64,000 bases of DNA from Microbacterium luteum (GTDB lineage: Bacteria; Actinomycetota; Actinomycetes; Actinomycetales; Microbacteriaceae): assembly GCF_015277875.1 (NCBI RefSeq), contig NZ_CP063814.1:930001-994000 (forward strand), given 5' to 3'. Under the pieces are notes generated by a model that worked only from the letters and a program-made list of their open reading frames with translations, was not told the origin of the DNA and did no database searches. The translations under genes were made by a program, and so were the position numbers. Below are positions 37,869-56,080 of this stretch, piece after piece. Numbering within the stretch: the stretch's first letter is position 1; the number at the start of each line of letters is the position of its first letter.

Positions 37869-37940
37869 GCCTCTGTAGCTCAATGGAAGAGCAGTTGCGT
37901 CCTAAGCAAACGGTTGGGGGTTCGAGTCCCTCCAGGGGCA
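37869..37940 (+). tRNA. tRNA-Arg (anticodon CCT)
   Basis: Acceptor GCCTCTG pairs with CAGGGGC, the T arm is GGGGGTTCGAGTCCCTCC, and the anticodon loop GTCCTAA gives CCT for AGG codons. CCA is not encoded. A TAGACT box is at 37853. The gene marks the left boundary of the accessory island. Confidence 0.92.
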
Positions 37941-37981
37941 CCGATTGTTCCACGTCAGACCGGGATGTTGACCGGCGTGGT

Positions 37982-39675: not shown

Positions 39676-39846
39676 CCCGGTCAGTTCCTCCCTGATCTCC
39701 CGCGCGAGCGCGGTGGGAAGATCTTCCCCGTCCTCGACTTTGCCGCCGGGGAACTCCCACTGGCCTGCGAGGTCGGCGGGGCGAGTGCGCCGTGCGGCGA
39801 GTATCAAACCGTCTCGCACAATGACGGCGCCGACGACGATGCTCAT
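39676..39846 (-). pseudogene. NUDIX hydrolase, N-terminal half
   Basis: 57 codons beginning MSIVVGAVIVRDGLILAARR, with WEFPGGKVEDGE and AREIREEL, the NUDIX box (GX5EX7REUXEE) of MutT-like (deoxy)nucleoside triphosphate pyrophosphohydrolases. The ATG overlaps the helicase stop (ATGA), so the enzyme was translated directly after the helicase. The frame now runs into IS30 and ends after 17 extra residues. The box is complete but the fold is truncated, so activity is unlikely. Confidence 0.88.
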
Positions 39847-42800
39847 TGCGCGGCCACCGAGGCTCGCTGGAAAAAGTCCGAAGGCATCGGCCGGTCAAGC
39901 CTCCAGGTGACTGCAATAGGCCGCTCGCCAACGTGCTGCACAAACGTGGCGGTTCCGAGGAAGAGGTAGGGCGCGGTTCCGAACTCATTCACCTTCTCTT
40001 CGCGCACGAAAAGGAGGACGTCGCTCGCTCCCGACAGATATCGCTGCCCGGTGGGTGACGTGACCGTCGTCCCAGACTGACTTTCCCAGTGGAAGAGCTC
40101 GTCGCTGATGGGGTAATCGCGATACATCGTGCTGGGAGAAAACGCGGCTTCAGATTTCTTGAGCGTGATGAAGAAGGCGTCGACGTTCTCGTCCGTGACG
40201 TAGAGCACGCCCTCGCGGAAAGAGTTTGGCTTCCGGCGAAGACTTGCATAGCGCAACGCCGCCAGCACCTCCTCGCGCTGGTATCTAGCGTGCACTCGCA
40301 AGGGTGACCATGCGAGACGGCCGCGCATAGGGGACGGAACGTGCCGAGCGCTGTCGAAGGCGAGCCCGATCGCAGCACTGAGCTCCTCGCGTGCGGCTCT
40401 CTCCTCGCGCAGGGCGCGCAGGCCGGCTTCGACAGATTCAAACCCTCCGCCATCGGGCCAGAGGGAAAAGAACAGCATGTTGGCAAACAGCTGGCTGTGC
40501 GCGGACAGTTCGGTGTACGAGGGCGCATCGTCGGCGAGGAGACGCAGATATTCCTGCGCGCGGTCCGAGTCGTCAACATGCACGAGGGCGCGTACGCGCT
40601 TCAGAAGTTGCTCTTCGTGTTCCGCACCCTTGGACGTTCCTAGTCCGGCATCCCTTCGGAGCTGAGTCCACGAGCGCCCGGTCTGCCCTCGCTTCAGGAT
40701 GTCCGCGAGCTCTACGCCGGCCTCGCGAAGGAAGGCTTCGAGCGTCAGGTCTCCGTATGAACGCAGCTCCGCGGCAAGCTGCTGCCACCGATTGACGACT
40801 TGACCTTTGAGGTTCTCGAGGATCGCTGCTTGCGAGTTTCTGTCGAGGACGATTTGCGACCCGGAGGGCAGGAACGGGAAGCCATGCTCGACCTGGCGGA
40901 CGACCGCTTGTCGGGTCAGTCCCGTGAGGGCGCGCAGCTTCTTGTCCCATCGGAACTGCTTGCTTTGATGGCCCACGAAATCGAGTGCCGTCAGCACGGC
41001 CTTGTCTTGGGTGCGTCTCAAGCCTCGACCCAGTTGCTGCAGAAAGACTGTCGCGCTCTCTGTTGGTCGGAGGAAGAGCACTGTGTCGACGTCAGGGATG
41101 TCGAGCCCTTCATTGAAGAGCTCGGCGGAGAAGAGAATGTTGACTTCTCGGTTGCGCAGCTTTTGTAGCGCAACGTCGCGCGGCGCTCCCGTGCGGCCGT
41201 CGCCACTCACCATCAGCGCAGGGATGTTGGCGGTGTTGAAGACGCGCGCCATGTACTCCGCGTGCGCGACATCGACACAAAAGCCCAGCGCGCGCATGCT
41301 CGACGTATCGATCACCTTGTCGACGAGTTCTTTGATGATGATCCGGGCGCGCGCATCGTTGCCGGTGAACAGTTCAGACAGCTGAGCCGAGTCGTACCCG
41401 CCTCGAACCCACTCCACTCGCGATAGGTCCGTCCCGTCCGCGATGGCGAAGTAGTGAAAGGGCGATAGAAGCTCCTGGCCGAGCGCATCCCACAGCCGCA
41501 ACTCTGCAGCGATGCGTCCGTCGAAATAGCTCAGGACGTTGTCTCCGTCTGCACGCTCGGGAGTTGCCGTGAGGCCGAGCAACTCCTTCGGCTGGAGGTG
41601 ATTTAGCAGTCGGCGGTAGGTCGCGGCGCTCGAGTGGTGGAACTCGTCGATCACGACGATGTCGAAGGCTGTAGGAGGAATGTTCTCGACGCCGTACGAG
41701 GTCAACGACTGCACGCTTGCGAAGACATGCTCCCACCGCTCGGGCCGGCTTCCCGCCACGTAGGTCTCACCGAAATTCGCATCCGCCAAGACCTCGCGAT
41801 AGGTGCGTACGGCCTGCGTGAGGATCTCCTTTCGATGTGCGATGAAGAGCAGCGACCGCTCCGCTCCTCCGAGCCGGCGGTAGTCGAACGCCGCGAGCAC
41901 GGTCTTGCCTGTACCGGTCGCCGCGACGACGAGGTTTCGATGTCGGTCATGTACTTCGCGCTCCGCTTCAATCGCCTCGAGCATCTCCAACTGGTACGGA
42001 TAAGGCCGCACTTCCAGCCCCGAGAGGGAGACCGTCACGCGATTGTGGCGCCCTGCACCAGACGCCTCAGCAAGTGCGTCATCGAGGCGGTCACGATCGC
42101 GATCGGGGTTGTAGATCTCGTAGCTTGCGTCATTCCAGTACGTATCGAACGTCGCCTGGAACTTCTCCAGCAGGGTCGGGGTGCCGACTCGCGAGAGACG
42201 GACATTCCACTCGACCCCGTCCAGGAGTGCGGCGCGTGAGAGGTTCGAGGATCCGACGTAGGAGGTGTCGAATCCGCTGTGTCTGCGGAAGAGCCATGCT
42301 TTTGCGTGCAGTCGAGTCCGCAGTGAGTCGTACTGGACTTTGATCTGCGCGCCGAGCTCTCGTGCGAGCCGGTCGATCGCGGTGCGTTCCGTAGCGCCCA
42401 TGTAGGTGGTCGTGATGATCCGGAACGATGCGCCACGTCGCTGAAGTCGTCGCAGCTCGGTCTCGAGCAGCCTCACCCCATGCCACTTCACGAAAGCGCA
42501 GAGGAGATCGACCTGGTCCGCAGTGTCGATCTCGGCCTTCAGCTCCGAGTTCAGGTTCGGTTCGCCCCGTGAGTTCGTGAGCAGCGCTGCCTCGCTGAGC
42601 GGAGTCGTCGGACGGACTTGCTCGTAGTCGATCTGGCCCGGAGTGGATGGCCGAGTCAATCGATGGAGCTGTTCAACGGGTGAGAGGACGGGGTCCGGTG
42701 AGTCGGGTAGTCCCTGCAGCAGTTTGTTTGCGAGCGCGAGCCGCGCGTCCTCCGTGCCAAGAGAAGACAGGTGCCGGAGTGTCTCTTCATAGACCTGACG

Positions 42801-42941
42801 AGCGAGAACATGGGGCTGATCGGCTTCGTCAACGGCCTCGAGCCTCGGAGTGAGACTCGGCAACGCCGACAGGCGACGCTGAAGCCCGGCAGTTCGGAGT
42901 GACTCGTAGAGACCCGCTGGCAACTCCGATGACCCTGCCAT
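39843..42941 (-). CDS. PLD nuclease - SF2 helicase - DUF3427-type protein
   Basis: A 1032-residue putative defence protein. The N-terminal region has a phospholipase-D-type nuclease site (RLHAKAWLFRR, H212 and K214, with downstream VGSSNLSRAAL). SF2 helicase motifs follow: Walker A ATGTGKT (341-347), DEFH in VIDEFHHS (432-435), GLTATPERADG, and motif VI in QQLGRGLRR. The last 350 residues fit the DUF3427 type found behind such helicases. Start ATG 42941 follows AAAGGAG. It ends coupled to NUDIX. The combination suggests translocation with nucleic-acid cleavage. Confidence 0.85.
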   Translation of the reverse strand: MAGSSELPAGLYESLRTAGLQRRLSALPSLTPRLEAVDEADQPHVLARQVYEETLRHLSSLGTEDARLALANKLLQGLPDSPDPVLSPVEQLHRLTRPSTPGQIDYEQVRPTTPLSEAALLTNSRGEPNLNSELKAEIDTADQVDLLCAFVKWHGVRLLETELRRLQRRGASFRIITTTYMGATERTAIDRLARELGAQIKVQYDSLRTRLHAKAWLFRRHSGFDTSYVGSSNLSRAALLDGVEWNVRLSRVGTPTLLEKFQATFDTYWNDASYEIYNPDRDRDRLDDALAEASGAGRHNRVTVSLSGLEVRPYPYQLEMLEAIEAEREVHDRHRNLVVAATGTGKTVLAAFDYRRLGGAERSLLFIAHRKEILTQAVRTYREVLADANFGETYVAGSRPERWEHVFASVQSLTSYGVENIPPTAFDIVVIDEFHHSSAATYRRLLNHLQPKELLGLTATPERADGDNVLSYFDGRIAAELRLWDALGQELLSPFHYFAIADGTDLSRVEWVRGGYDSAQLSELFTGNDARARIIIKELVDKVIDTSSMRALGFCVDVAHAEYMARVFNTANIPALMVSGDGRTGAPRDVALQKLRNREVNILFSAELFNEGLDIPDVDTVLFLRPTESATVFLQQLGRGLRRTQDKAVLTALDFVGHQSKQFRWDKKLRALTGLTRQAVVRQVEHGFPFLPSGSQIVLDRNSQAAILENLKGQVVNRWQQLAAELRSYGDLTLEAFLREAGVELADILKRGQTGRSWTQLRRDAGLGTSKGAEHEEQLLKRVRALVHVDDSDRAQEYLRLLADDAPSYTELSAHSQLFANMLFFSLWPDGGGFESVEAGLRALREERAAREELSAAIGLAFDSARHVPSPMRGRLAWSPLRVHARYQREEVLAALRYASLRRKPNSFREGVLYVTDENVDAFFITLKKSEAAFSPSTMYRDYPISDELFHWESQSGTTVTSPTGQRYLSGASDVLLFVREEKVNEFGTAPYLFLGTATFVQHVGERPIAVTWRLDRPMPSDFFQRASVAAQ

Positions 42942-43043
42942 GCCACTCCTTTGATGCCAACCAGCTCGTCCGATCCACACGCTAGCGGAGCCGTGCCATG
43001 CAGCGGACGGGCCCGCGCCGAGCGTGCTGATACGGTCGCAATC

Positions 43044-43364
43044 GTGACGAGCGAGCGAGTGCGCCAGGCCCTAGTTGAGTTCGTGCGCGAGCGGGATTGG
43101 GCCCAGTTCCACACCCCCGCGAACCTCGCGAAGAGCATTTCCATCGAAGCGGGTGAATTGCTCGAGTGCTTTCAATGGGGAGACGACGGCGACGACGCGC
43201 GAGTGCGTGAAGAGCTCGCAGACGTGATGACGTATTGCACCCTGCTCGCCATGCGACTTGGCGTCGAGCCTGATGAGATCGTGCTGGAGAAGCTCGCCGT
43301 GACTGCCGAGAAGTACCCCGTCGAACGAGCGAAGGGGCGAAGCGCCAAATATGACGCCCTTTGA
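43044..43364 (+). CDS. MazG-like nucleotide pyrophosphohydrolase
   Basis: A 106-residue all-alpha NTP pyrophosphatase. Metal-binding motifs are ISIEAGELLECFQW (E35xxE38) and REELADVMTYCTLLAMRL (E57xxD60). Such short MazG/MazG-like proteins hydrolyse dNTPs or NTPs and recur in defence islands. The start is GTG 43044, with TACGGT 7 nt upstream and no ribosome site. It is divergent from the helicase across about 100 nt and overlaps the next gene by 14 nt. Confidence 0.88.
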   Translation: MTSERVRQALVEFVRERDWAQFHTPANLAKSISIEAGELLECFQWGDDGDDARVREELADVMTYCTLLAMRLGVEPDEIVLEKLAVTAEKYPVERAKGRSAKYDAL

Positions 43365-45093
43365 TATTGAGCGACTCGACTTCTCACCACACGCGATCGC
43401 GGCCTGGGCCAAGGGAGATGAGCGACGGAGAAACTGGCCCGTCGTCTATGTCCTCGATGGCGGAGTGACGCGTGGCGCGGCATCCGTCTACGTAGGCGAG
43501 ACGGTCAACGCGGCCTCGCGGATGCGCCAGCACCTCGCCAACCCCACGAAAGACGGACTCCGCAGCGTGCGCGTCGTCTTCGATGAGACCTTCAACAAGT
43601 CCGCCTGTCTGGATCTCGAATCGCACCTCATCCGATGGCTTGCCGGCGACGGCCAATTCAGCGTGATGAACGGCAACGAAGGAATTATCGACGCGCGCTA
43701 CTACGAGCGTGAGGTCTATCGCGAGAGCTTTCGAGGCATCTTCGAGCAGCTCCGGGTTGAGGGAATCTTTCAGCGCTCGATTCCTGAGATCGAGAACAGC
43801 GACCTCTTCAAGCTTTCACCTTTCAAGGTGCTCACGCCTGAGCAGGCGATCGCCGTCGAGGACATCGTTGAGGGATTGCTCGGGGATCTCGAGACCGGCG
43901 TTCCATCGTCAAGTGTGATCGAAGGGCACCCGGGCACGGGGAAGACGATCGTCGCGATCTTCCTGATGAAGCTGCTCGCCGACATCCGTGACTTCGACGA
44001 TGGTGACGAGATCGAGCCCGACTCGATGTTCGCCGAGTTCTTCGTGCCGGAGAACCGAGACCTTCTCAAACGCCTTCGAATTGGGTTCGTCGTGCCGCAG
44101 CAGTCGCTCCGCGAGTCGATCAAGCGGGTGTTCAAGAAGACTCCGAAAGTCGCCGTGGACCAGGTCCTCAGCCCTTTCGACGTCGGTGTGTCGGACGAGC
44201 GCTGGGACATCCTCATCGTGGATGAGACGCACCGACTCAACCAGCGAGCAAACCAGTCCTCAGGCGTCAACAACAAGCGCTTCATCACAATCAACGAGAA
44301 GCTCTTCGGCGCGGATGACTCGTCGAAGACGCAACTCGACTGGATCCGCGCGCAGAGCTCCCATCAGATCTACCTGCTCGATGCAGAGCAAACGGTGCGA
44401 CCGGCAGACCTGCCGCGGGAGACTCTTCGGGGGCTCGTCGAGCAAGCTCGCTCCGCGCACCGCCAGTACCCGCTCGCGACGCAAATGCGCGTGCGTGCGG
44501 GCGCGGACTATGTCGAGTTCGTCCGAGCGATGCTCCGCGGCGAGGCGGGGACTAGTGATCGTCCAGACCTCGGCGAGTACGACCTCCGGTTCTTTCATGA
44601 TCTGGCAGCGATGTGGAACGAGATCCTCGATCGCAACATCGAGCACGGGCTTGCGCGTCTCGTCGCTGGCTATGCGTGGGACTGGAAGAGCCGCCGCGAC
44701 CCGAGCGCATTCGATATCGAGATCGACGGGTTGCAGCTGCGTTGGAACAGCCAGGCGAAGGATTGGATCAATAGCGCCAGGTCAATTGACGAAGTCGGAT
44801 CGATCCACACCGTCCAGGGATACGACCTCAATTACGCCGGCGTCATTATCGGCAACGAACTCCGCTATGACCCGGACGCTCGGCGTCTCTTTATCGACCG
44901 CGACTCGTATCGCGACGCGAAGGGCAAGGAGAACAACAAGCAGCGGGAGCTCACGTATTCGGATGACGATTTGCTCGAGTTCATCCGCAACATCTACGGG
45001 GTGTTGCTGACCCGCGGGATCAGGGGGACGTACGTGTACGTATGCGATCCCAACCTGCGGGCGTACGTCGAGGGTGCGATCGCGTCACGTTAG
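43351..45093 (+). CDS. GIY-YIG nuclease fused to DUF2075 helicase
   Basis: A 580-residue fusion. Residues 28-115 are a GIY-YIG-like domain (VVYVLDG, VYVGETVNAASRMRQHL, ESHLI: Tyr, Tyr, Arg57 and Glu90). From 150 on is a DUF2075 (Schlafen-like) P-loop helicase: Walker A GHPGTGKTI (192-199), Walker B ILIVDETHR (287-294), and SIHTVQGYDLNYAGVIIG as a motif V/VI-like block. It overlaps the MazG gene and is translated with it. The nuclease plus ATPase architecture implies DNA or RNA processing; the target is unknown. Confidence 0.87.
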   Translation: MTPFDIERLDFSPHAIAAWAKGDERRRNWPVVYVLDGGVTRGAASVYVGETVNAASRMRQHLANPTKDGLRSVRVVFDETFNKSACLDLESHLIRWLAGDGQFSVMNGNEGIIDARYYEREVYRESFRGIFEQLRVEGIFQRSIPEIENSDLFKLSPFKVLTPEQAIAVEDIVEGLLGDLETGVPSSSVIEGHPGTGKTIVAIFLMKLLADIRDFDDGDEIEPDSMFAEFFVPENRDLLKRLRIGFVVPQQSLRESIKRVFKKTPKVAVDQVLSPFDVGVSDERWDILIVDETHRLNQRANQSSGVNNKRFITINEKLFGADDSSKTQLDWIRAQSSHQIYLLDAEQTVRPADLPRETLRGLVEQARSAHRQYPLATQMRVRAGADYVEFVRAMLRGEAGTSDRPDLGEYDLRFFHDLAAMWNEILDRNIEHGLARLVAGYAWDWKSRRDPSAFDIEIDGLQLRWNSQAKDWINSARSIDEVGSIHTVQGYDLNYAGVIIGNELRYDPDARRLFIDRDSYRDAKGKENNKQRELTYSDDDLLEFIRNIYGVLLTRGIRGTYVYVCDPNLRAYVEGAIASR

Positions 45094-45116: not shown

Positions 45117-45920
45117 TCACCCTCCAAAAAGGATCGCGTAGGCGTCGATAGTGAATGTGCCGACGACCGTGATGAAGCCGGCCAGCGTCGCCGTAGCCCA
45201 GGCCAGGCGAACCCGTCGCGCGGCGATGACTTCGCGGCGAAGGTGAGCAAATGCTGGCTCGTCGATTTCTGGTGCAGGCACGGGGGCGCCGGACCAGGTT
45301 TCTCGACGCGAAAGAGTGCTGGCGACCCGGTTGCGATCATCGTCGTTGAGCGTGACGGGACGGCGGTTCAGCCAGCGCACGAGCTCGTTATCACGGAGCA
45401 CTGCCACGTCGGTGGGTTGCTCACGAATCGTGATGCTGCGGGCGCCGACCAGAACGATCACGGCGTGCACGTCGACCGATTCTGCGATCGCCATGCTCAT
45501 CAGTCTCGAGACCCGTTGCGTCTCGTATCGAGAGTTGCGCAGATAGTCGGTCTTTTGACCATTCACCATCAGCCGTCTACTGCCGACCCACACGCGCGCG
45601 TCCTCGTGGAACTTCGTGTTGATCGTGAAGACGCCGGCCGGGCCGACCACGACATGGTCGATGTCGCTGCCACGTTCGCCAATGGGGACGGAGTGCAGCA
45701 CCGTCCACTCTGGGCCAAGCCTCGCCAACAGCGCAGCGACGCGCAGCTCACCAAGAGCTCCGAGATACCAGGGCCGCGAGTCCGCGGACAGCGGCGTCCG
45801 GCCGAACGCTCGCGCGAACCCCGACCGTGCGGGAACATCCGCCTGCGCTTGAAGGCACGCGGCAATGACAGCGGCGGCGGGGACCGTGCCAAACCGGTCA
45901 GTCGAACTCGGCGCGGTCAC
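45117..45920 (-). CDS. NERD nuclease-related membrane protein
   Basis: About 267 residues. The NERD domain (about 55-165) shows the PD-(D/E)XK-like pattern YLGALGELRVAALLARLG, GSDIDHVVVGPAGVFTINTK and VLVGARS, so a nuclease fold is predicted. One membrane helix closes the protein (ATATLAGFITVVGTFTIDAY). The start is either GTG 45920, which overlaps a 49-residue ORF's stop as GTGA, or GTG 46010, whose extra 30 residues overlap that ORF. I favour 45920. Role is unknown, though NERD proteins occur in defence settings. Confidence 0.8.
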   Translation of the reverse strand: MTAPSSTDRFGTVPAAAVIAACLQAQADVPARSGFARAFGRTPLSADSRPWYLGALGELRVAALLARLGPEWTVLHSVPIGERGSDIDHVVVGPAGVFTINTKFHEDARVWVGSRRLMVNGQKTDYLRNSRYETQRVSRLMSMAIAESVDVHAVIVLVGARSITIREQPTDVAVLRDNELVRWLNRRPVTLNDDDRNRVASTLSRRETWSGAPVPAPEIDEPAFAHLRREVIAARRVRLAWATATLAGFITVVGTFTIDAYAILFGG

Positions 45921-46066
45921 CGTCGCCCACGCCAAGTCGGTGAGAGCGGGAGCCAGAGCGAGCCGACGATGAGGAGCGCCACCCAATTGGTCAAGGTAAG
46001 TACTGACCACAGTGTTCCGAGTCCAGTGACGAAGCCGTCGTCCTCTGCTGCCCCGTAGTCGATCAT
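45917..46066 (-). CDS. possible 49-residue membrane protein before NERD
   Basis: The frame from ATG 46066 encodes MIDYGAAEDDGFVTGLGTLW, then a hydrophobic helix (VLTLTNWVALLIVGSLWLPL) and a basic tail. The stop overlaps the NERD GTG (GTGA). Hydrophobicity and coupling favour a real gene; the ribosome site is weak. Confidence 0.4.
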   Translation of the reverse strand: MIDYGAAEDDGFVTGLGTLWSVLTLTNWVALLIVGSLWLPLSPTWRGRR

Positions 46067-47350: not shown

Positions 47351-48214
47351 CTAACTGTCCGGGTGCTCATGCTCCCAAGGTTGATCTGCGTCCGGTAGAA
47401 CCCGAAACAGCGGATGACGCGTTCCCACTTCGCTGGCTAGTTCGTCATCGGCCTTGCCGATCCTGTCGCGCGCGACGAGGCGAGCACCGGCAATCGGGGC
47501 TGACTTTGCCTTGATGAGGACCTCCGTAGCGGTTTCGATTTCCGTAACCCCCATGACGTCATACAGATAGCCGCGTAGGAATGGGTTCGCGAAGTCGCTT
47601 CGAACCGCGCTGATCACTGCTTCCCAGAGTGCTACTCGTCGAAGTTCCAGGGTGCCTGGGTCCTCCGCCACATACATCGGGATGTTGTTCGCAATCACGA
47701 GCCATACCGAGGGGAAGTGCGGAGTCAGCGCTTTGAGCTCCTGGAGGGTAGCGGTGTCGAGGGGATAGGCCTGGTTCTCCGTCAGCCCGTCAATGAGTTT
47801 CAGCACATACGCGTCGTGGTGGCGACCGGTCATGAACCCCAGGTGCTCGACTTTGAGGGTGTTCTCGAAGAGGGATCGGAAGAGCCTTGCCGCCGCGCTC
47901 ATGTCAATGCGGTCTGCGGGGATTAACCGGATTTCACCATCCACCTCTTCGCAGAGTGCTTCGGTGGCCACCGACGCGATGACTTCGTCAGCGTCGTTGA
48001 GTAGTTGGACACCATTCCCTTCCAATAGCTCTCTGATCACTGAGGCGCGCGCGTTGTGGCGAGCCTCCGCGCGCGCCTCAGTTTCCGCTACTGCGAGGAG
48101 CGTGCCGCTTAGCGTCGCCTCGCAAGCCGCGCGAAGATCTTCAACCTGCTCGGCGGACAACATTTTGCCCTGGCCATCGACGATCGAGTACTCGTCGTCA
48201 CGCCACCGCACCAC
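47351..48214 (-). CDS. uncharacterised partner of a PD-(D/E)XK-like nuclease
   Basis: A 287-residue soluble protein that I do not recognise. It is predicted mainly helical, with EQVEDLRAACEATLSGTLLA, ARASVIRELLEGNGVQLL, and a C-terminal basic stretch (IAGARLVARDRIGKADDELA). There is no Walker motif, membrane helix or signal peptide. It follows the nuclease-like gene by 32 nt on the same strand and probably shares its transcript. The GTG 48214 start is approximate; the frame remains open upstream without another good start. Confidence 0.6.
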   Translation of the reverse strand: MVRWRDDEYSIVDGQGKMLSAEQVEDLRAACEATLSGTLLAVAETEARAEARHNARASVIRELLEGNGVQLLNDADEVIASVATEALCEEVDGEIRLIPADRIDMSAAARLFRSLFENTLKVEHLGFMTGRHHDAYVLKLIDGLTENQAYPLDTATLQELKALTPHFPSVWLVIANNIPMYVAEDPGTLELRRVALWEAVISAVRSDFANPFLRGYLYDVMGVTEIETATEVLIKAKSAPIAGARLVARDRIGKADDELASEVGTRHPLFRVLPDADQPWEHEHPDS

Positions 48215-48246
48215 CCACCAGTAGGCCGAACCGTAGTACGCGACTT

Positions 48247-48732
48247 CTAGCCCCGGACCTCGCGATGGAACTGCGCCGTGATTGCGCTGCGCGCAACGTC
48301 TTCGTCTGCCACCTCACCGGACGCGTGTGCCCGCATGAGCAGGTCGCCGCCGTCGATGATTGAGACCGCGGCATCGTGCTGCTTCAGGGCCGCATAGCTT
48401 CCCGCGACGTGTCCGTTGACACCGTTTAGTGCGATGAGAACACCGACGGTTGTGTGACGGCTTGCTCGTTCGATGAGCAGCTTGCCAAGGAGGGCGTGCC
48501 ACTTCGGCATGGTCAGCGGTGAGCCATACGCCTTTGCTTCTCCTACGATTGGTGTCACCTGCGTCTGCGTCAGCAACTCCGATTCCCGCTCCGCGACAAT
48601 GTCGAGCTCGTTTCCGCCCGCCACGACGAAGTTGGTGCGGACACGGACGTGCCCCTGCGCTGACAAGACCGACTTCACCAGCGACTCGAGTTGAGCGCCC
48701 TTATCGTCCGCGGTGACACCAAGTACGAGCAC
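48247..48732 (-). CDS. PD-(D/E)XK (Mrr-like) nuclease
   Basis: A 161-residue protein with the restriction-endonuclease-like arrangement: helix E16 in KGAQLESLVKSVLSAQG, D44 in GGNELDIVAER and E65-x-K67 in PIVGEAKAYGS. The pattern E...D...ExK is that of the Mrr_cat/RE-like clade, normally small nuclease subunits. The remainder is helical with no DNA-binding or helicase domain. GTG 48732 follows GGAGAG. It is the first gene of a two-gene unit with the 287-residue partner, so a compact restriction or abortive-infection module is possible (inference). Confidence 0.7.
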   Translation of the reverse strand: MLVLGVTADDKGAQLESLVKSVLSAQGHVRVRTNFVVAGGNELDIVAERESELLTQTQVTPIVGEAKAYGSPLTMPKWHALLGKLLIERASRHTTVGVLIALNGVNGHVAGSYAALKQHDAAVSIIDGGDLLMRAHASGEVADEDVARSAITAQFHREVRG

Positions 48733-48958: not shown

Positions 48959-50368
48959 TCATTGGTTCGCGACCATGGTCGGGTGGAGGGCAAAATGCAG
49001 CACGGCAACGTTGAGGTCCCTTGCCGCCCTGAGCCACTCTGGCTCGGCGCGCAGTGACTTCATCGCGTCTGGATACCAAGCCCTGCGTTGCTGCGTGGAA
49101 CTCCCAGCATCGAAGCCTCCGTAGTGCGCGGTCGCGTTCCGTCGCGCCTTCAGCACTTGGATTAGCTCATACAGATCGGAACTGGGGCCACCGAATCCCG
49201 ATTCCGGGATGTTGCGCGCTGCAAGGACCTTGGCTGCCATCGAATACACCCGGGGGCCGGGATCCTGCGGCCCTACCTTTTCGGGCCACGGCGCGCCAGA
49301 CATCAGGGACACCGTCCCGCCGTCGCCCAAGCGTTCGGCCAGTGTCTCTAGTACCGACCAGTGCTTGAAGAACTTGAAGTCCTCATTCCTCTCGGCGAGC
49401 GCCTCGGCGAACAAGCTCGCCCCGAGACGGGCAAGCGGATCGTTGCCCAGCCCGACGAACTCTGAAGCGAGATGATCTGGCGATTCACCTGCGACGGCGC
49501 CTCCGATCAAGTTGCCGCCGTAGTGGGTATCGAGCGGATAGACGCGTGACCGGCTTGAATTGTTCGGCTGACGCTGTTCGAGGATGAGCGCCACCGGGTT
49601 CGCTTTCGCCAGTCGATTGAGTGAGAGCACTAACTGGAGCCTCTCGATCATCTCGGTTGCGAGCTGGTGCGCGTTCTCGAAGTCGGGAGCCCAAATCTGG
49701 GGAATCAGCACCGCGGTGGTTGGATAGCGACTTGCCTTCGAGGATGCCCACTTTCCAATGTCGACTGCGACCGGCAGTTTGAGCGACTCGAGGAAATGAT
49801 TGAGGAGTTCGACGTGCTCTCGATCAACTGGGCGCGCGTCGAGAGGGACCGTGATGAGACCCGGATAGATCGTGTGCTGCGTCGTGAGGACCCCTGCCAG
49901 GAGCGTCACCACACGATGTAGGTGGTTTGACGGATTTGTCGGATCGCCGACTGGCGATCCGAACAGATTCTTGTGTTGAGCACTGAGGTCATCGTGAATC
50001 ATCTGGGTCTCCTCGTCGCTTACCGCGGGGCCGGTCCAGTTGACTAGCGAGGCAGGATTGTTCTCGGGGACGAGCGTGCGTGCGCCATTGCTGACGTGGT
50101 CGACGTAGACGCCCCAGAGCCTCTCGAGATCCACGCCGTGCGGCACCTTCGCGTTACCATTCCCGCAACTGTCGAGTCGGACTTGCAGCGGCTGGAATGA
50201 CAGATGCCCCGCCGGCGAAGTTATCCCGAGATGAACCTCGACGTCGTGCGATGCGAATTCGGTCAAACCCTTTAGGTGGACGTCGAACGCCTCACCCGAG
50301 CTGAGAATCCTCGGCATGATGATGGCGGAGGAGCCTGGGTGCCGGGTCGCTGGCTTTGTACCGCTCAT
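48959..50368 (-). CDS. HEPN-motif protein, downstream partner of SIR2
   Basis: A 469-residue soluble protein. Near the C-terminus KARRNATAHYGGFD contains RNATAH (410-415), an exact RNxxxH HEPN ribonuclease motif, followed by a helical RAARDLNVAVLHFALHPT tail. The upstream 350 residues (for example VHLGITSPAGHLSFQPLQVR and ERLQLVLSLNRLAKANP) match no family I recognise and may form a sensor. Start ATG 50368 follows GAGG by 7 nt. It lies 18 nt after the SIR2 stop, so the two are almost certainly cotranscribed. Confidence 0.7.
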   Translation of the reverse strand: MSGTKPATRHPGSSAIIMPRILSSGEAFDVHLKGLTEFASHDVEVHLGITSPAGHLSFQPLQVRLDSCGNGNAKVPHGVDLERLWGVYVDHVSNGARTLVPENNPASLVNWTGPAVSDEETQMIHDDLSAQHKNLFGSPVGDPTNPSNHLHRVVTLLAGVLTTQHTIYPGLITVPLDARPVDREHVELLNHFLESLKLPVAVDIGKWASSKASRYPTTAVLIPQIWAPDFENAHQLATEMIERLQLVLSLNRLAKANPVALILEQRQPNNSSRSRVYPLDTHYGGNLIGGAVAGESPDHLASEFVGLGNDPLARLGASLFAEALAERNEDFKFFKHWSVLETLAERLGDGGTVSLMSGAPWPEKVGPQDPGPRVYSMAAKVLAARNIPESGFGGPSSDLYELIQVLKARRNATAHYGGFDAGSSTQQRRAWYPDAMKSLRAEPEWLRAARDLNVAVLHFALHPTMVANQ

Positions 50369-50386
50369 GTGGTTCCTCAACGTGTC

Positions 50387-53300
50387 TTAGACATCCGGTT
50401 CGTCCACGACACCCTTCGCGCGCAGGGCGCCGACGAGGGGGTCGACGACCTCATCACCGAGTTCCGATCGAAGCGCATCTACGAGTCGACGAACTCGGTA
50501 GGAGAACGCGCGTCCGCGTGGGGTCGTGTTACTCGCGCGCGCTGCGAAAAACTCGATCAGCTCGGCCCCGTGGGCGGCGAGCACTCCTGCGGGAAAGTCG
50601 GCAGTCATGGGATGCTCACCAAAGCCGGGGGCATGCCCGTCAAAAAGAGCAATGCCGTCGGGGACGGCGGTATCGAGATGCGGGACTGCGTCGGCCCAGC
50701 AAGAGAGCTCTTCTGCCGTTGCGATGCGCGGGACGCCGCTGAGCCGTTCTTGGACGTGGTCGCGCAACCATTGATCCCAAACCGCCGCGCCGTCGACCCG
50801 ATCGGCGCCGAGGAATCGAGTGGTCGCCTGGGCGAAGCGCTCCGCGTACGCACCGTTCTCCGAAAGCACGCTTCGGTCAAGGAGACGCTGACGCTCCTGG
50901 TCAGTGATGCCTGCAAACGACACGACCGACGCGACGACGCCAAAGAACTGCTGCCGGATCATCTCGTCAGTGATGCTCCCGAGTCGATCCCACTCCGTCA
51001 CCATTGCGTCCAGGAGACCCGCGGCGAGCAACCTGTCGTTGTATCGCGGGTGGTGCAGGAACGCGTTCCATACGAGCCTGGCGCTGTCGTCATCGTTGAA
51101 CAGTGGGAGAAGGTGAGCGGAGGAGAAGTCTGCGTCTGCCGCAAAGAGGAAGAACAACTGGCTCGCGAGCGCGGGACGTGTTGCGTCAAGGGCATGGCGT
51201 GGGCCATCGAGCAGTTGAATCACCGACTCTCGCTCCTCCTCGTTGAGCCCCGACCAATCGTCTCGATTCTGCCGCCAGCGCCGATCGATTTCGGTCAGCC
51301 AGTAGAGGGCAAGGCTGCCGGGCCACGAGTTGAGGTACAGGGGTGCCATCGACATCACGTCAGTGCCCTCGTCGTGACTGAACTCGCTACCGTGCGCCAG
51401 CCAGAGTGCCCTCGCCATGACGCGCATGCCCTTCAGCGAGTCATCTTCTTCATCGTCAACACGCATCCGTATCTGCTCAAGCAGAAACCGCCCTATCTGA
51501 TGCGCAGCCTGAGCGTCCGAGACAAGCGTGCTTGCTCTCTCGACGGCAATGGGCGCTGAGGATCCCAGGTCAGCCTTCGTCCATCCGGCGACGATGGCTC
51601 GAAGCATCTCCGCCTTTCGCGGCTGGTCCGTGGCCTGCGCGAGCACTTCGTTCCACAGTCCTTCACCCATCGACGCGTCGTGCTCAACGGCCTGCGCGAG
51701 CAAGGAGAGAACGTCATCCCAGCCCGGCTCGTCGAACGCATGCTCGGAGAAGTCTCTCGAGAGCAGATCTGCGAGCGCCGTCGGGGCATCGGCTCGGATC
51801 GCCGCCGCGAACTCCGACGGCTCCATAGGCAATTGACCACCCCAAGTACCGGATGACATCCACGTGTCGAAGTCGGGGTGCTCTCGTGGAGCGAAATCCT
51901 TATTGGCTTGCTCCAGGGCCGCAAGGGCCGTCGTTGCCTCCATCCACGCCGGCGCGTGAGTCACCAGCCACACAAGCAAGTTGTACTTGCCGTATTCGAT
52001 GTGGCGATCGCGATCAGGAGCCTCCGCCGGAAGGTCCGGCCCTAGAAGCACGGCCTGAAGCACCCGCTGTCGGATCTCGCTGGACGCACCGTCAACACTC
52101 GCCGCGAGGACCGCATAGGTTTCATGTTTCAAGCCGTCCTCATACAGATCGGTTCGGCCCAGCAACCATTCAAGCTTCGTGTTCGCGTCGAGATTCGGAT
52201 CGGTCGCCGTCAGATGCAATGCAATTCGCCGAAAGAGTGGCCGCTCAGTTGCCCACCACCCCGCGGGCAGATCCCACTCCGTTCCGCGCGCTCGAACGCC
52301 GAAGTCGCGTAGCGCGTCGATGATTGCGTCGATGGGTTCGCGGATCTCATCCTGGTGATGCGGTTCGATTGCTGAACGACCGAAGGACAGTGCGTCCCAA
52401 CCGGATTCCCCACGATAGGTGTCGAGTAGGTCATACGCTGCGGTCAATGCCTCCTCAAGAGCAAGACCAAGCGAGCGGTCGCCAGGCTGTGCCGCTTGGA
52501 CCGCGGCCGACAAATGAGGGGTCAGCGAATACTCCTCACCGTTCCACTTGACGTCGGCGTCAGGCACCGCCGTTGGCGCCTCGGGCTCCTCTACGAACCA
52601 TCGTCGCTTCAGGACGAGGAACGGGCGGACGGCGAACCTTAGCGCGGACACACTCTGCGGGTCGGCGCCGGGAGCGAATGGAAGCAGAAGGTCCGAGCGT
52701 GCGGGCGCAGTAAACCCGTGCACCGAAGTCGCAAGAATGGTACGCCATCGATGTCCTGCCGTTGGGTCTGCTCGCGCCAGCTCCTCAACGGCGAAACTCG
52801 CTGTGGTGAACAACGGTTCCGCGAACGTCTGACCGAGGCGTTGCACGGTCTGGAGCGCAGCACCGTGCAGTCCGGGCTCAGCGAGAAACGAACGGCTGAA
52901 CCAGTTCGCGAGGACAGCAGAGGCGTCGCCCACTTCACCGGATTCGAAGAGCTGCTTGAACCCCGCGAAACTCTCTAGCCAGCGAAGCCATTCGAGCTTC
53001 AGCTCGGTTGACACCGATTCGGTCGCCTTCGCAAAGTCGACGGCACCCTCGCGGCGACTCAGCCGTTCGACCAAGTAGTCGCGATCAACTGGAGTGAGAG
53101 CGGTACCCGCGGAAACGATCTCCTGCACACGGGCACCATGTTCGATCTGTCCCATCCGGGCGCGGACATCCCACGCCTCGAGAGCTTGGACCAGCGCACC
53201 ATGGTCATGCCCCGTGACTGGATAGGCAACGGGCCGGACGCCGAGTCGTTTCCATTTGACGTCATGCGCGCTGTCGGCGCTGGTCAGGACGAAACGGGGC

Positions 53301-53941
53301 GTACCAGAGGGCAGGCCAAGAGCGAGATAGCGCATGATCGGGTCGTCATGGCTGTAACCAATAAAGACGACCGTGAACCGTTGGAACATAGGCAACAGAA
53401 ACCGCGTCGCCCACGCAGCGGTCAGGTAAGCGCGGCCGAAATCCTGGTCAGTGAGAACGAGCTCGCGTGGATGTCTAGTCACGGAGCCGTGGAGGTGAAC
53501 AAGCCCTTCGAAGTCATCCCCGAGAGGGAGCGCGGGTCCGATCCACTTATCCGCTATCGCGATACCCTCTCCAGCGGCCGCCGAGGCGAGATGGTCGTCG
53601 AAGTTGGTCGTGACGACCCTAAAGGAACCTGTCGCGGAAGCCAGCCGAATCAGAGCTCTGTGCGTAGAGTTCGGTAGGGATTCGCCCGTCGTGATGATGT
53701 CTCGAGTATGACCGTGAGTGTCGAAGTCATCCGGCATCGATCCGAGGAAGTAGTCAATCGCGATGGCGTCGTCGTAGTGGACGCGAGCGAGGTCGGCGAG
53801 CTTCTGAGCCAGTGCCCCGAACAGCGGAAGATCCGAAGGCGGGGCGACGCTTGCTCCTGCGCCAACGAACAACACCAGGCGCCCCTCGGCCTGTGCGGCG
53901 AGCACCTCATCGGGCAGTTCAACGTCACCGGTAATCCACAT
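50387..53941 (-). CDS. large SIR2-domain defence protein
   Basis: An 1184-residue protein. The SIR2 (sirtuin NADase) domain occupies about residues 1-260, with VLFVGAGASVAPPSDLP (GAGAS, 27-31), TTNFDD (111-116), HLHGS (149-153, catalytic His) and FIGYSHDDPIMRYL. The remaining 900 residues are helical; the C-terminus (about 980-1184) resembles the DUF4020 type known behind SIR2 domains. Related phage-defence sirtuins (DSR, ThsA-like) deplete NAD+ upon infection. No ATPase is present. The ATG at 53941 has a weak ribosome site. Confidence 0.85.
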   Translation of the reverse strand: MWITGDVELPDEVLAAQAEGRLVLFVGAGASVAPPSDLPLFGALAQKLADLARVHYDDAIAIDYFLGSMPDDFDTHGHTRDIITTGESLPNSTHRALIRLASATGSFRVVTTNFDDHLASAAAGEGIAIADKWIGPALPLGDDFEGLVHLHGSVTRHPRELVLTDQDFGRAYLTAAWATRFLLPMFQRFTVVFIGYSHDDPIMRYLALGLPSGTPRFVLTSADSAHDVKWKRLGVRPVAYPVTGHDHGALVQALEAWDVRARMGQIEHGARVQEIVSAGTALTPVDRDYLVERLSRREGAVDFAKATESVSTELKLEWLRWLESFAGFKQLFESGEVGDASAVLANWFSRSFLAEPGLHGAALQTVQRLGQTFAEPLFTTASFAVEELARADPTAGHRWRTILATSVHGFTAPARSDLLLPFAPGADPQSVSALRFAVRPFLVLKRRWFVEEPEAPTAVPDADVKWNGEEYSLTPHLSAAVQAAQPGDRSLGLALEEALTAAYDLLDTYRGESGWDALSFGRSAIEPHHQDEIREPIDAIIDALRDFGVRARGTEWDLPAGWWATERPLFRRIALHLTATDPNLDANTKLEWLLGRTDLYEDGLKHETYAVLAASVDGASSEIRQRVLQAVLLGPDLPAEAPDRDRHIEYGKYNLLVWLVTHAPAWMEATTALAALEQANKDFAPREHPDFDTWMSSGTWGGQLPMEPSEFAAAIRADAPTALADLLSRDFSEHAFDEPGWDDVLSLLAQAVEHDASMGEGLWNEVLAQATDQPRKAEMLRAIVAGWTKADLGSSAPIAVERASTLVSDAQAAHQIGRFLLEQIRMRVDDEEDDSLKGMRVMARALWLAHGSEFSHDEGTDVMSMAPLYLNSWPGSLALYWLTEIDRRWRQNRDDWSGLNEEERESVIQLLDGPRHALDATRPALASQLFFLFAADADFSSAHLLPLFNDDDSARLVWNAFLHHPRYNDRLLAAGLLDAMVTEWDRLGSITDEMIRQQFFGVVASVVSFAGITDQERQRLLDRSVLSENGAYAERFAQATTRFLGADRVDGAAVWDQWLRDHVQERLSGVPRIATAEELSCWADAVPHLDTAVPDGIALFDGHAPGFGEHPMTADFPAGVLAAHGAELIEFFAARASNTTPRGRAFSYRVRRLVDALRSELGDEVVDPLVGALRAKGVVDEPDV

Positions 53942-54106
53942 CAGGCAATCAAGCCCTCACTAGTCGAAAGAGTTCCAACGCGTTCTGGTCGCCGCACGTC
54001 CTGTCTGCCCCCGGACCCAAGAGGCGACTCCAGGAGCTCTGGAGCTTCGACTCGCTACGTGCCACCCCGCACTCTCGGAATACCACGGCAACCCATGACA
54101 CCGACC

Positions 54107-56080
54107 TCATGCTGCTCGCGCTCGACTTGCATCGCCCGCAGCGCCTGAGTGCAGTGCGAAGTCGTCTTGGATCTTCAGCAGGAGCGCGAGCGTCAGCCGG
54201 AGCAATTGCATGTACGCCTCCCGGTGAGCTTTCTCGTCGCGAGCGTTGGGATTCGTGCCGTGAAGGTATCTGTTACGCAGGTCATGTCCGTCGGTGAACT
54301 CGCTCTTGTTGAGGACGAAGTTGAAGTAGCTCGCCTCGGCTGGACTGAGCAGCGTCGAACCGAAATCGAGCCACCCCTGTCCAGCCAGATCTTCAGCGGC
54401 TGCCACTTCTCGCTGGTAGTGCCCGAAGGGGGCCGCCTCATACGTGTTGATGTCCCTCAGGACACGGATCTTCGGCAAGGATCTGAAGCCGACGGTGCCA
54501 TCTTCGACCGATACAAGGCCAACTGAAGCAAGCCAGTCGACGGGCCCCGTTTGATAGTGGTGCAGGCTTTCGTAGTTGACGTGGTTATCCAGGACCAGCT
54601 GCACGAAGCTTGGCGCGCGGAGGTCGCTATTGATGAAGTTGATTCTTGCCTGATCGCTGAAGAGTAGCCGCAGGGCGGTGTCGCAGTCTTCGTTCTCGCC
54701 CTTGAGCAAGTACTTTCGCTTGACGAGACTCGGGATCTTCTCCCAGGGGCGCGGCGCGGATGTCATCTCGAGCAGCTCCCGGTCGATCTCGCCGTCCTCG
54801 CAGTAGAGGGCGAACTGCTTGGCGATGCTCTCCATCTCTGCGCAGAGGTGCCGGCATCGTTCGAGGAAGGTTCCGCTCGCAGTCGAGGGCGCGAAATCAA
54901 AGCCCGCGATCCCGAAAACCTCGGCGATGTAGTCGCGAAAGTACCAGGCGATGACATCCTCGACCTTGGTCCCCTCCTGCAGCAGGAAGTCGTAGTAGGC
55001 CTCGGTGGAGAGGATCGTCAGGCTATCGCGGTGTCGGTACGCTGCCCCTCGCGGGTACGTGTCCGCTCCCGTTACCCGAAGTCCTTCCAACACGCCGATC
55101 TCGCTACGGAACGAGGGCAACGCCAGGAGTCCTCGCTCGTCCATGTATCCGATGATCGTTGTGAAGTTCGCCAGAATCTGGTCCCGCCCCATCGATGACT
55201 TCAGGTACCGACCGCCGAATGTGCGCTGATGAAGCCGCCTGGCACCGGTGCGTTCAACCCGATCCCGCAGCGGCTCCTCTTGATCCGGGTCAATCCCAAC
55301 CGCGTAGCTGACGCCGCTGACCACGTTCGATCTGTCAGCGAAGAGCACTTGGGTGAGCTCGATCAGGCGACGCTGTGCCGCGAGCCTCACCTTCGGCGTG
55401 AGTCCGATGCCAGCGTTGTCGTGCGCATTCGCGATGGCTTCGATGTAGTTGAGATGTGGCGATTCGCTATCGATGTAATCCTTGAGGATCTGCTGCGAAT
55501 CGTCAGCGCTCAGACTCTCCGGCAAGAAGCTCGCGCTTGACCCGCTCCGCAGCAAGCGAGCGTTCACCAGAAGCTCGCCGTACCGGGCATCGGAGAGCAG
55601 CATCGTTCGGAGTCGCCCGTCGTGCCCCTTCACGAACGACTTGTCCGCGAGCATCGCCCATAGCGGTACGCCTGCGCTAACGAGCGCATCGAATAGCCGT
55701 TGCCCGCCCACGTTGCTAACAATCTTGAATCTGTTGATCAAGTGGAGCAGATCGTGTACGTACTCGCGGTCGAAAACCGCCAATCGCTCGGCGACGTTCG
55801 TGTCGTCGATCGTCGCGAAGAAGCCAGCAAGCTGTCCACGGAGAGACGTCGCCCGCAACCCGAGTGTCGCACGTTCCTCCGGGGTGAGAGCACTCGGGAG
55901 GATGTCGTGCCTCTCGAACTCAAGGGCGTTGTGGATCTCGAGAGCCTCGTTGAGGGAAGCGATCCTGCCAGCCTCCGGCTGCGCCCTGAGCAAGGCCACG
56001 GCCTCCTCGGCGATCAAATAGTTCGCGAGATCGCCCGGACCGTAGAACTTGATCCGATCGCGTGGCGCAGGTTCTTCCAT
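54107..56080 (-). CDS. large HEPN-motif protein upstream of SIR2
   Basis: A 657-residue soluble protein. The C-terminal GHDLRNRYLHGTNP holds RNRYLH (602-607), the RNxxxH HEPN RNase motif with the LRN..LHG context seen in ApeA-like HEPN domains. A helical tail (AYMQLLRLTLALLLKIQDDF) follows. The first 580 residues (for example DRIKFYGPGDLANYLIAEE and NVGGQRLFDALVSAGVPLW) match nothing I know. GATAAC lies about 8 nt before the ATG, so it may be leaderless. It is the first gene of the HEPN-SIR2-HEPN row, with 165 nt before SIR2. Confidence 0.7.
   Translation of the reverse strand: MEEPAPRDRIKFYGPGDLANYLIAEEAVALLRAQPEAGRIASLNEALEIHNALEFERHDILPSALTPEERATLGLRATSLRGQLAGFFATIDDTNVAERLAVFDREYVHDLLHLINRFKIVSNVGGQRLFDALVSAGVPLWAMLADKSFVKGHDGRLRTMLLSDARYGELLVNARLLRSGSSASFLPESLSADDSQQILKDYIDSESPHLNYIEAIANAHDNAGIGLTPKVRLAAQRRLIELTQVLFADRSNVVSGVSYAVGIDPDQEEPLRDRVERTGARRLHQRTFGGRYLKSSMGRDQILANFTTIIGYMDERGLLALPSFRSEIGVLEGLRVTGADTYPRGAAYRHRDSLTILSTEAYYDFLLQEGTKVEDVIAWYFRDYIAEVFGIAGFDFAPSTASGTFLERCRHLCAEMESIAKQFALYCEDGEIDRELLEMTSAPRPWEKIPSLVKRKYLLKGENEDCDTALRLLFSDQARINFINSDLRAPSFVQLVLDNHVNYESLHHYQTGPVDWLASVGLVSVEDGTVGFRSLPKIRVLRDINTYEAAPFGHYQREVAAAEDLAGQGWLDFGSTLLSPAEASYFNFVLNKSEFTDGHDLRNRYLHGTNPNARDEKAHREAYMQLLRLTLALLLKIQDDFALHSGAAGDASRARAA

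Follow-up and report, generated by a model that had tools for sequence, protein, structure and literature searches.

Among described anti-phage systems, the sirtuin (SIR2) proteins DSR1 and DSR2 and the prophage protein Tha resemble most closely the genes considered here. According to a review, DSR1 halts phage without leading to cell death, unlike DSR2 (PMC10952713), and residues N133 and H171 of DSR2 are reported to be required for its NAD+ hydrolase (NADase) activity (PMC11290490). Tha, a prophage protein of 301 amino acids (aa) with the motif RNSIMH, is described as being activated by minor tail proteins and degrading RNA (PMC11087260). Families named PDC-x are described in PMC11811056 as candidate systems from Payne et al. 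2021 that had not been published. The present study concerns three adjacent genes, named here A (the PDC-S56-type gene), B (the SIR2 gene) and C (the gene with the motif RNATAH), in a 64,000-nt stretch of Microbacterium luteum DNA (the window; assembly GCF_015277875.1, contig NZ_CP063814.1, positions 930,001 to 994,000 of the forward strand). An earlier examination of the letters and their translations (the sequence-only reading) had taken the interval 50368..56080 for one undescribed defence cluster, with a large SIR2 protein between two HEPN proteins. From the distribution of their relatives, it is very likely that A, B and C are instead autonomous defence candidates of one gene each, which have been stacked side by side in a defence island of mobile appearance.

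Separate relatives of three adjacent genes

As had been claimed from the sequence, A, B and C are long, intact open reading frames (ORFs), all on the minus strand and transcribed in the order A–B–C. Gene A (54107..56080) encodes 657 aa, gene B (50387..53941) 1184 aa and gene C (48959..50368) 469 aa from an ATG. An alternative TTG start for C at 50380 would give 473 aa; the ATG at 50368 is the likelier start because GAGG stands six bases ahead of it. With that start the gap between B and C is 18 nt, and the gap between A and B is 165 nt. The interval proposed earlier covers A and B and meets C in a single base, its first (50368); the remainder of C, as far as 48959, falls outside. The exact RNxxxH motifs reported for the first and third genes are present in the translations, as RNRYLH in A (residues 602–607; 54260..54277, minus strand) and RNATAH in C (residues 414–419 counted from the TTG; 49124..49141, minus strand).

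The three genes are not regarded as one system, because relatives of each lie elsewhere without the other two. Altogether, 389 relatives of B were found in a genome contig collection, and the best 80 of these were read as loci with their flanks (L-numbers below denote such loci of relatives), at least 3 kb being available on both sides in 63 of the 80. Searches with phmmer (E up to 1, on ORFs of at least 60 aa) and tblastn (E up to 0.1) detected no relative of A or C in any of the 80 loci, including L032 and L033, which carry the two closest B relatives, and a recount gave 85 matches, every one of them to B. The ORFs of these maps were picked mechanically, and some are false; a phmmer control recovered A relatives down to 20% identity, and that set offered no such control for C. 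In the reverse direction, neither B nor C was found in the stretches read of six A loci (L004, L005, L029, L030, L031 and L149), L030 being a 9.2-kb contig and A in L031 being cut by the contig end. The only relative found of C, gp45 of a mycobacterial prophage (described below), is a solitary cargo gene there, flanked by the genes for an HNH endonuclease and the terminase small subunit. Among 394 genomes of the class, the own genome counted, A occurs in 4 and C in 1. Strong B matches (E below 1e-50) are present in 6 of these genomes, split into two pieces in G146 and G220, and weaker SIR2-type matches in 6 more; only the own genome holds more than one of the three, A and B both.

These distributions bear directly on the possibility of a single three-gene system, in which B would sense phage and A and C would be its HEPN effectors. 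Its one-strand adjacency and short gaps (165 and 18 nt) are what such a system might look like, but with A or C in 0/80 B loci, six A loci free of B and C in the stretches read, no genome of 394 but the own with A and B together, and PADLOC models that treat DSR1-type and PDC-S56 genes as separate systems, it is judged highly improbable. The proposal of one undescribed A–B–C system was accordingly rejected for want of any conserved co-occurrence in the B loci, the A loci, the class genomes or around gp45, an outcome that the sequence-only reading had itself named as refuting it; A and B, moreover, fall within families already named (PDC-S56 and DSR1-type). No description of a HEPN–DSR1–HEPN cluster was found in the literature searched, subscription journals being mostly outside its reach. 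What did stand of the proposal is the kind of parts involved, which look like defence proteins: a DSR1-type SIR2 protein and two proteins with a conserved RNxxxH. Defence islands ordinarily contain such stacks of single-gene candidates.

Several observations weigh against the reading of three autonomous candidates, and a further one, on the HEPN status of A and C, is taken up with that question below. The 80 B loci are the best of 389, and this set may lack contigs from the own genome or from very close ones. The test on 394 genomes is low-powered (besides the own genome, 3 have A and 5 a strong B match), and since these numbers are small the argument is carried by the 80 B loci. Just 18 nt separate B from C and no terminator-like site was found between them, so the two genes may share a transcript. 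A promoter scan returned zero promoters, below the count in shuffles. So short a gap is not usual for B, as a same-strand ORF of at least 150 aa lies within 60 nt downstream of it in only 9 of 76 other loci (upstream, in 14 of 75). Finally, a SIR2 gene near an RNxxxH protein recurs in 2 of the 80 loci, L032 and L033, the protein there being a different one, a Hypoth_Ymh protein with RNPLAH.

The short gap with GAGG before the ATG of C, and the lack of a terminator-like site, would also fit a two-gene unit confined to this lineage, in which C has been placed in the B transcript and both act together. This is judged very improbable, given that no C relative lies near any of the 80 B loci, that gp45 is alone in its prophage, and that stacking likewise makes short gaps. 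A more elaborate form is also considered very improbable. In it, C and gp45 would found a small HEPN family, as yet without a name and triggered by phage, and C would here have become part of the transcript of a DSR1-type sirtuin, a single trigger thereby setting off NAD+ loss and RNA cleavage at once.

The DSR1-type sirtuin B and its neighbours

Taken as a separate candidate, B has its closest described counterpart in DSR1. The complete sirtuin motif set attributed to it was borne out by a match to Pfam SIR2_2 (E 2.6e-18) and by GAGAS, N113 and H151, all within residues 7–289 (53075..53923, minus strand), the stretch best matched by NCBIfam Dsr1. Both N113 and H151 are present in 73/73 aligned sequences, namely B of the window and 72 relatives, 8 of the 80 loci having been dropped because they have no single ORF of at least 1000 aa. 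The PADLOC Dsr1 models match B with a best E of 2.4e-45 and NCBIfam Dsr1 (NF041818) with E 4.7e-60, the score of 203.5 bits not reaching the equivalog cut-off of that family (1400). Homology to DSR1 extends over the full length, beyond the SIR2 domain alone: an hhalign comparison of a profile of five B-type proteins with one of four plasmid proteins (three annotated as Dsr1 and one as a SIR2 family protein) aligned 1098 columns, residues 2–1156 with 4–1254, at probability 100, E 2.9e-64 and 23% identity. By these profile matches B belongs to a DSR1-like clade and is not the curated NCBIfam equivalog itself; among the best 80 of the 389 relatives, this clade occurs in several bacterial phyla.

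B and DSR1 thus share their layout, a similar length, a full-length profile match, the conserved SIR2 asparagine and histidine, and the lack of a fixed partner gene; they differ in that B is divergent (203.5 bits against 1400, and 23% identity) and lies here between two RNxxxH genes. DSR2 is likewise a large single protein with an N-terminal SIR2 domain, but only the SIR2 part of B matches it (structure 8k98, E 0.0026, profile 7–203 against chain 27–222), the Dsr1 match being far stronger and full-length. In the same search of solved structures the top match was the SIR2 protein 9v0g (E 2.7e-11), also inside the SIR2 part. The offset of about 20 between the B and DSR2 match ranges would place N113 and H151 on N133 and H171 of DSR2, a probable correspondence that is drawn from the match ranges and not from a residue alignment. 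By this likeness, the large C-terminal region of B would presumably sense a phage component, upon which the N-terminal SIR2 domain would be switched on and hydrolyse NAD+.

In the two closest relatives of B among the best 80, found in L032 and L033, the B proteins are 77% and 69% identical to that of the window, the former coming from a metagenome-assembled genome (MAG) of Microbacterium. In both loci (L032:6124-13555 and L033:6115-13561) B closes a type I restriction operon, overlapping the end of hsdR by one base, so that a DSR1-type sirtuin has apparently been built into a restriction operon. The hsdR product of L032 matches Pfam HSDR_N and T1RH-like_C, two further genes of these operons we take, by the look of their sequences, to be hsdM and hsdS, and the Hypoth_Ymh protein mentioned above is encoded in the operon as well. 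The mechanical ORF map of L033 breaks B into pieces of 997 and 181 aa. A weak match between the DNA of L032 and the window extends 35 bases upstream of B (53942-53976), into what in L032 is the 3' end of hsdR, a weak hint which suggests that the B gene of the window may once have followed an hsdR-type restriction operon.

Other neighbours of B vary. Among ORFs within 6 kb of it, the largest family reaches 8 of the 80 loci and the second largest 7, and these are presumably conjugative relaxases and integrases. Proteins with RNxxxH are not clearly enriched near B, the raw counts being 5 of 169 ORFs (200–1100 aa) within 1.5 kb and 12 of 536 farther away. In two MAG contigs of Acidobacteria (L094:13540-17145 and L101:13572-17321) a gene for a protein of some 1200–1250 aa, of one family in both loci, begins no more than 15 nt after B, and a member of this family also occurs upstream of B in L059. 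Elsewhere (L037:13654-15003), a B relative lies beside an opposite-strand gene for a RelA/SpoT-domain protein, which gives weak matches to HepT-like and DUF4145 families and has RNRVVH close to the C-terminus.

The RNxxxH proteins A and C

Both flanking proteins had been described as otherwise unrecognised. This does not apply to A, since PADLOC PDC-S56 matches it over nearly its full length (607.5 bits, E 8.3e-183, residues 1–645 of 657 on profile positions 1–642 of 649). There is no notable difference between the two, and PDC-S56 is itself a candidate family; the name was not found in the literature searched. Relatives of A are scattered: 3 further genomes among the 394 of the class, 1 further genome of 356 in the phylum, Bacteroides ihuae among 14 control genomes (1 of 14), and 8 plasmid records from Enterococcus and Pseudoalteromonas, of which one covers at least 80% of A and three only a short stretch. 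None was found in the viral contig collection or in phages, and a sequence search of solved structures gave nothing beyond matches at E 0.092 and 1.2. In the motif stretch, Leu-Arg-Asn, Tyr and His are invariant in 7/7 aligned members, one of which is a fragment ending at a contig edge. One of these seven also grazes Pfam DUF4209 (E 0.029), a family that carries RNxxxH.

C did prove to be unrecognised, and is the sole poorly known piece of the three genes. No Pfam or NCBIfam family scores above its cut-off on C, and PADLOC and PHROGs offer no match even at E up to 1. A C-terminal fragment gave a weak, sub-cut-off Pfam match to MauJ (E 0.003), and a Pfam MauJ search matched nothing in 197 genomes nor in 14 control genomes and is therefore uninformative. 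Relatives of C were not found in plasmids, in 57 genomes of relatives or 393 of the class (each besides the own), among solved structures searched by sequence, or in the genome contig collection, where a single-sequence scan reaches close relatives only. The one relative detected is gp45 of Mycobacterium phage prophiGD05-3, a prophage of Mycobacterium abscessus; gp45 has 477 aa, is a distant relative of C (23% identity) and matches it by tblastn at E 9e-9. A copy of gp45 with 100% identity is present in one IMG/VR contig; a scan of the viral contig collection with C led no further, and scanning it with gp45 and with C and gp45 combined returned that same single contig both times. A two-member profile of C and gp45 revealed no further relative in 196 class genomes besides the own, and gp45 was not found in plasmids. 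A and C are not detectable relatives of each other either (hhalign probability 0.1).

Whether A and C are HEPN proteins depends on how their motifs are read. Since RNxxxH arises in 5.2% of A shuffles and 5.8% of C shuffles, the motif by itself is weak evidence, and the HEPN assignment is instead based on its conservation, in 7/7 members for A and in 2/2 for C, the latter a thin sample of C and gp45. For C, RNATAH and the RNDVAH of gp45 align in all four MAFFT alignments, both beginning at residue 414, and an RNxxxH within 10 residues of that position occurs in 0.13% of gp45 shuffles. We regard C as probably a HEPN protein, from a family that is very rare. Two points count against the HEPN readings: the significant local match of C and gp45 covers residues 132-349 and ends before the motif, and single-sequence structure predictions for residues 380-657 of A and 310-473 of C gave no confident HEPN or other fold, the mean predicted local distance difference test (pLDDT) values being 36.8 and 37.6, with every residue below 50. 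Together with the frequency of the motif in shuffles (5–6%) and the lack of any Pfam HEPN family above cut-off for A or C, they leave room for the alternative that RNxxxH in A or C is not a HEPN active site and that one of the two is another kind of protein. The invariance of the A motif in all seven members and its matching position in C and gp45 speak for an active site, and this alternative is considered unlikely.

By description, both proteins recall Tha of Staphylococcus prophages, which is also a single gene without a recognised N-terminal domain and with a C-terminal RNxxxH, and which is prophage-borne, as is the C relative gp45. Tha is much shorter (301 aa, against 473 for C from the TTG and 657 for A), and membership of A or C in its family is not claimed. 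By analogy with Tha, the long N-terminal region of each would presumably act as a sensor, and the C-terminal HEPN-type RNxxxH would cut RNA after phage has been sensed. For A, B and C alike, we infer anti-phage activity and its triggers, NADase or RNase activity, and independent action.

The surrounding island and its significance

The region was also correctly described from the sequence as an island rich in insertion sequences behind a tRNA gene. The host genome is a single contig of 3.52 Mb, in which a tRNA-Arg gene (37869-37942) stands ahead of the island; after it the GC content drops from about 0.70 to about 0.62, and several transposases are present in the region, flanking the three-gene stretch on both sides. 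Also in this region, at 39843-42980, there is a PLD–helicase–DUF3427 protein matching the PADLOC type IV restriction model mREase_IV (E 0). It is followed at 42951-45093 by a MazG-like gene that overlaps the start of a gene in which a Schlafen group 3 helicase domain is joined to a GIY-YIG-like stretch (E 0.00044, just short of the cut-off), the pair looking like a two-gene unit, and at 45117-46010 by a gene for a protein with a NERD nuclease-related domain. Downstream of C, two same-strand genes (47351-48732) with 32 nt between them encode proteins of 161 and 287 aa, the first with a weak, sub-cut-off match to Mrr_cat (E 0.0074) and the second without any family in Pfam.

With these results, the supposed three-gene HEPN–SIR2–HEPN system is removed from the list of new systems. 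In its place the locus leaves smaller leads: a DSR1-like clade that occurs in several phyla and in which the two relatives closest to B stand at the end of type I restriction operons; further members of the candidate family PDC-S56; and what is probably a HEPN family, very rare and with one prophage member.

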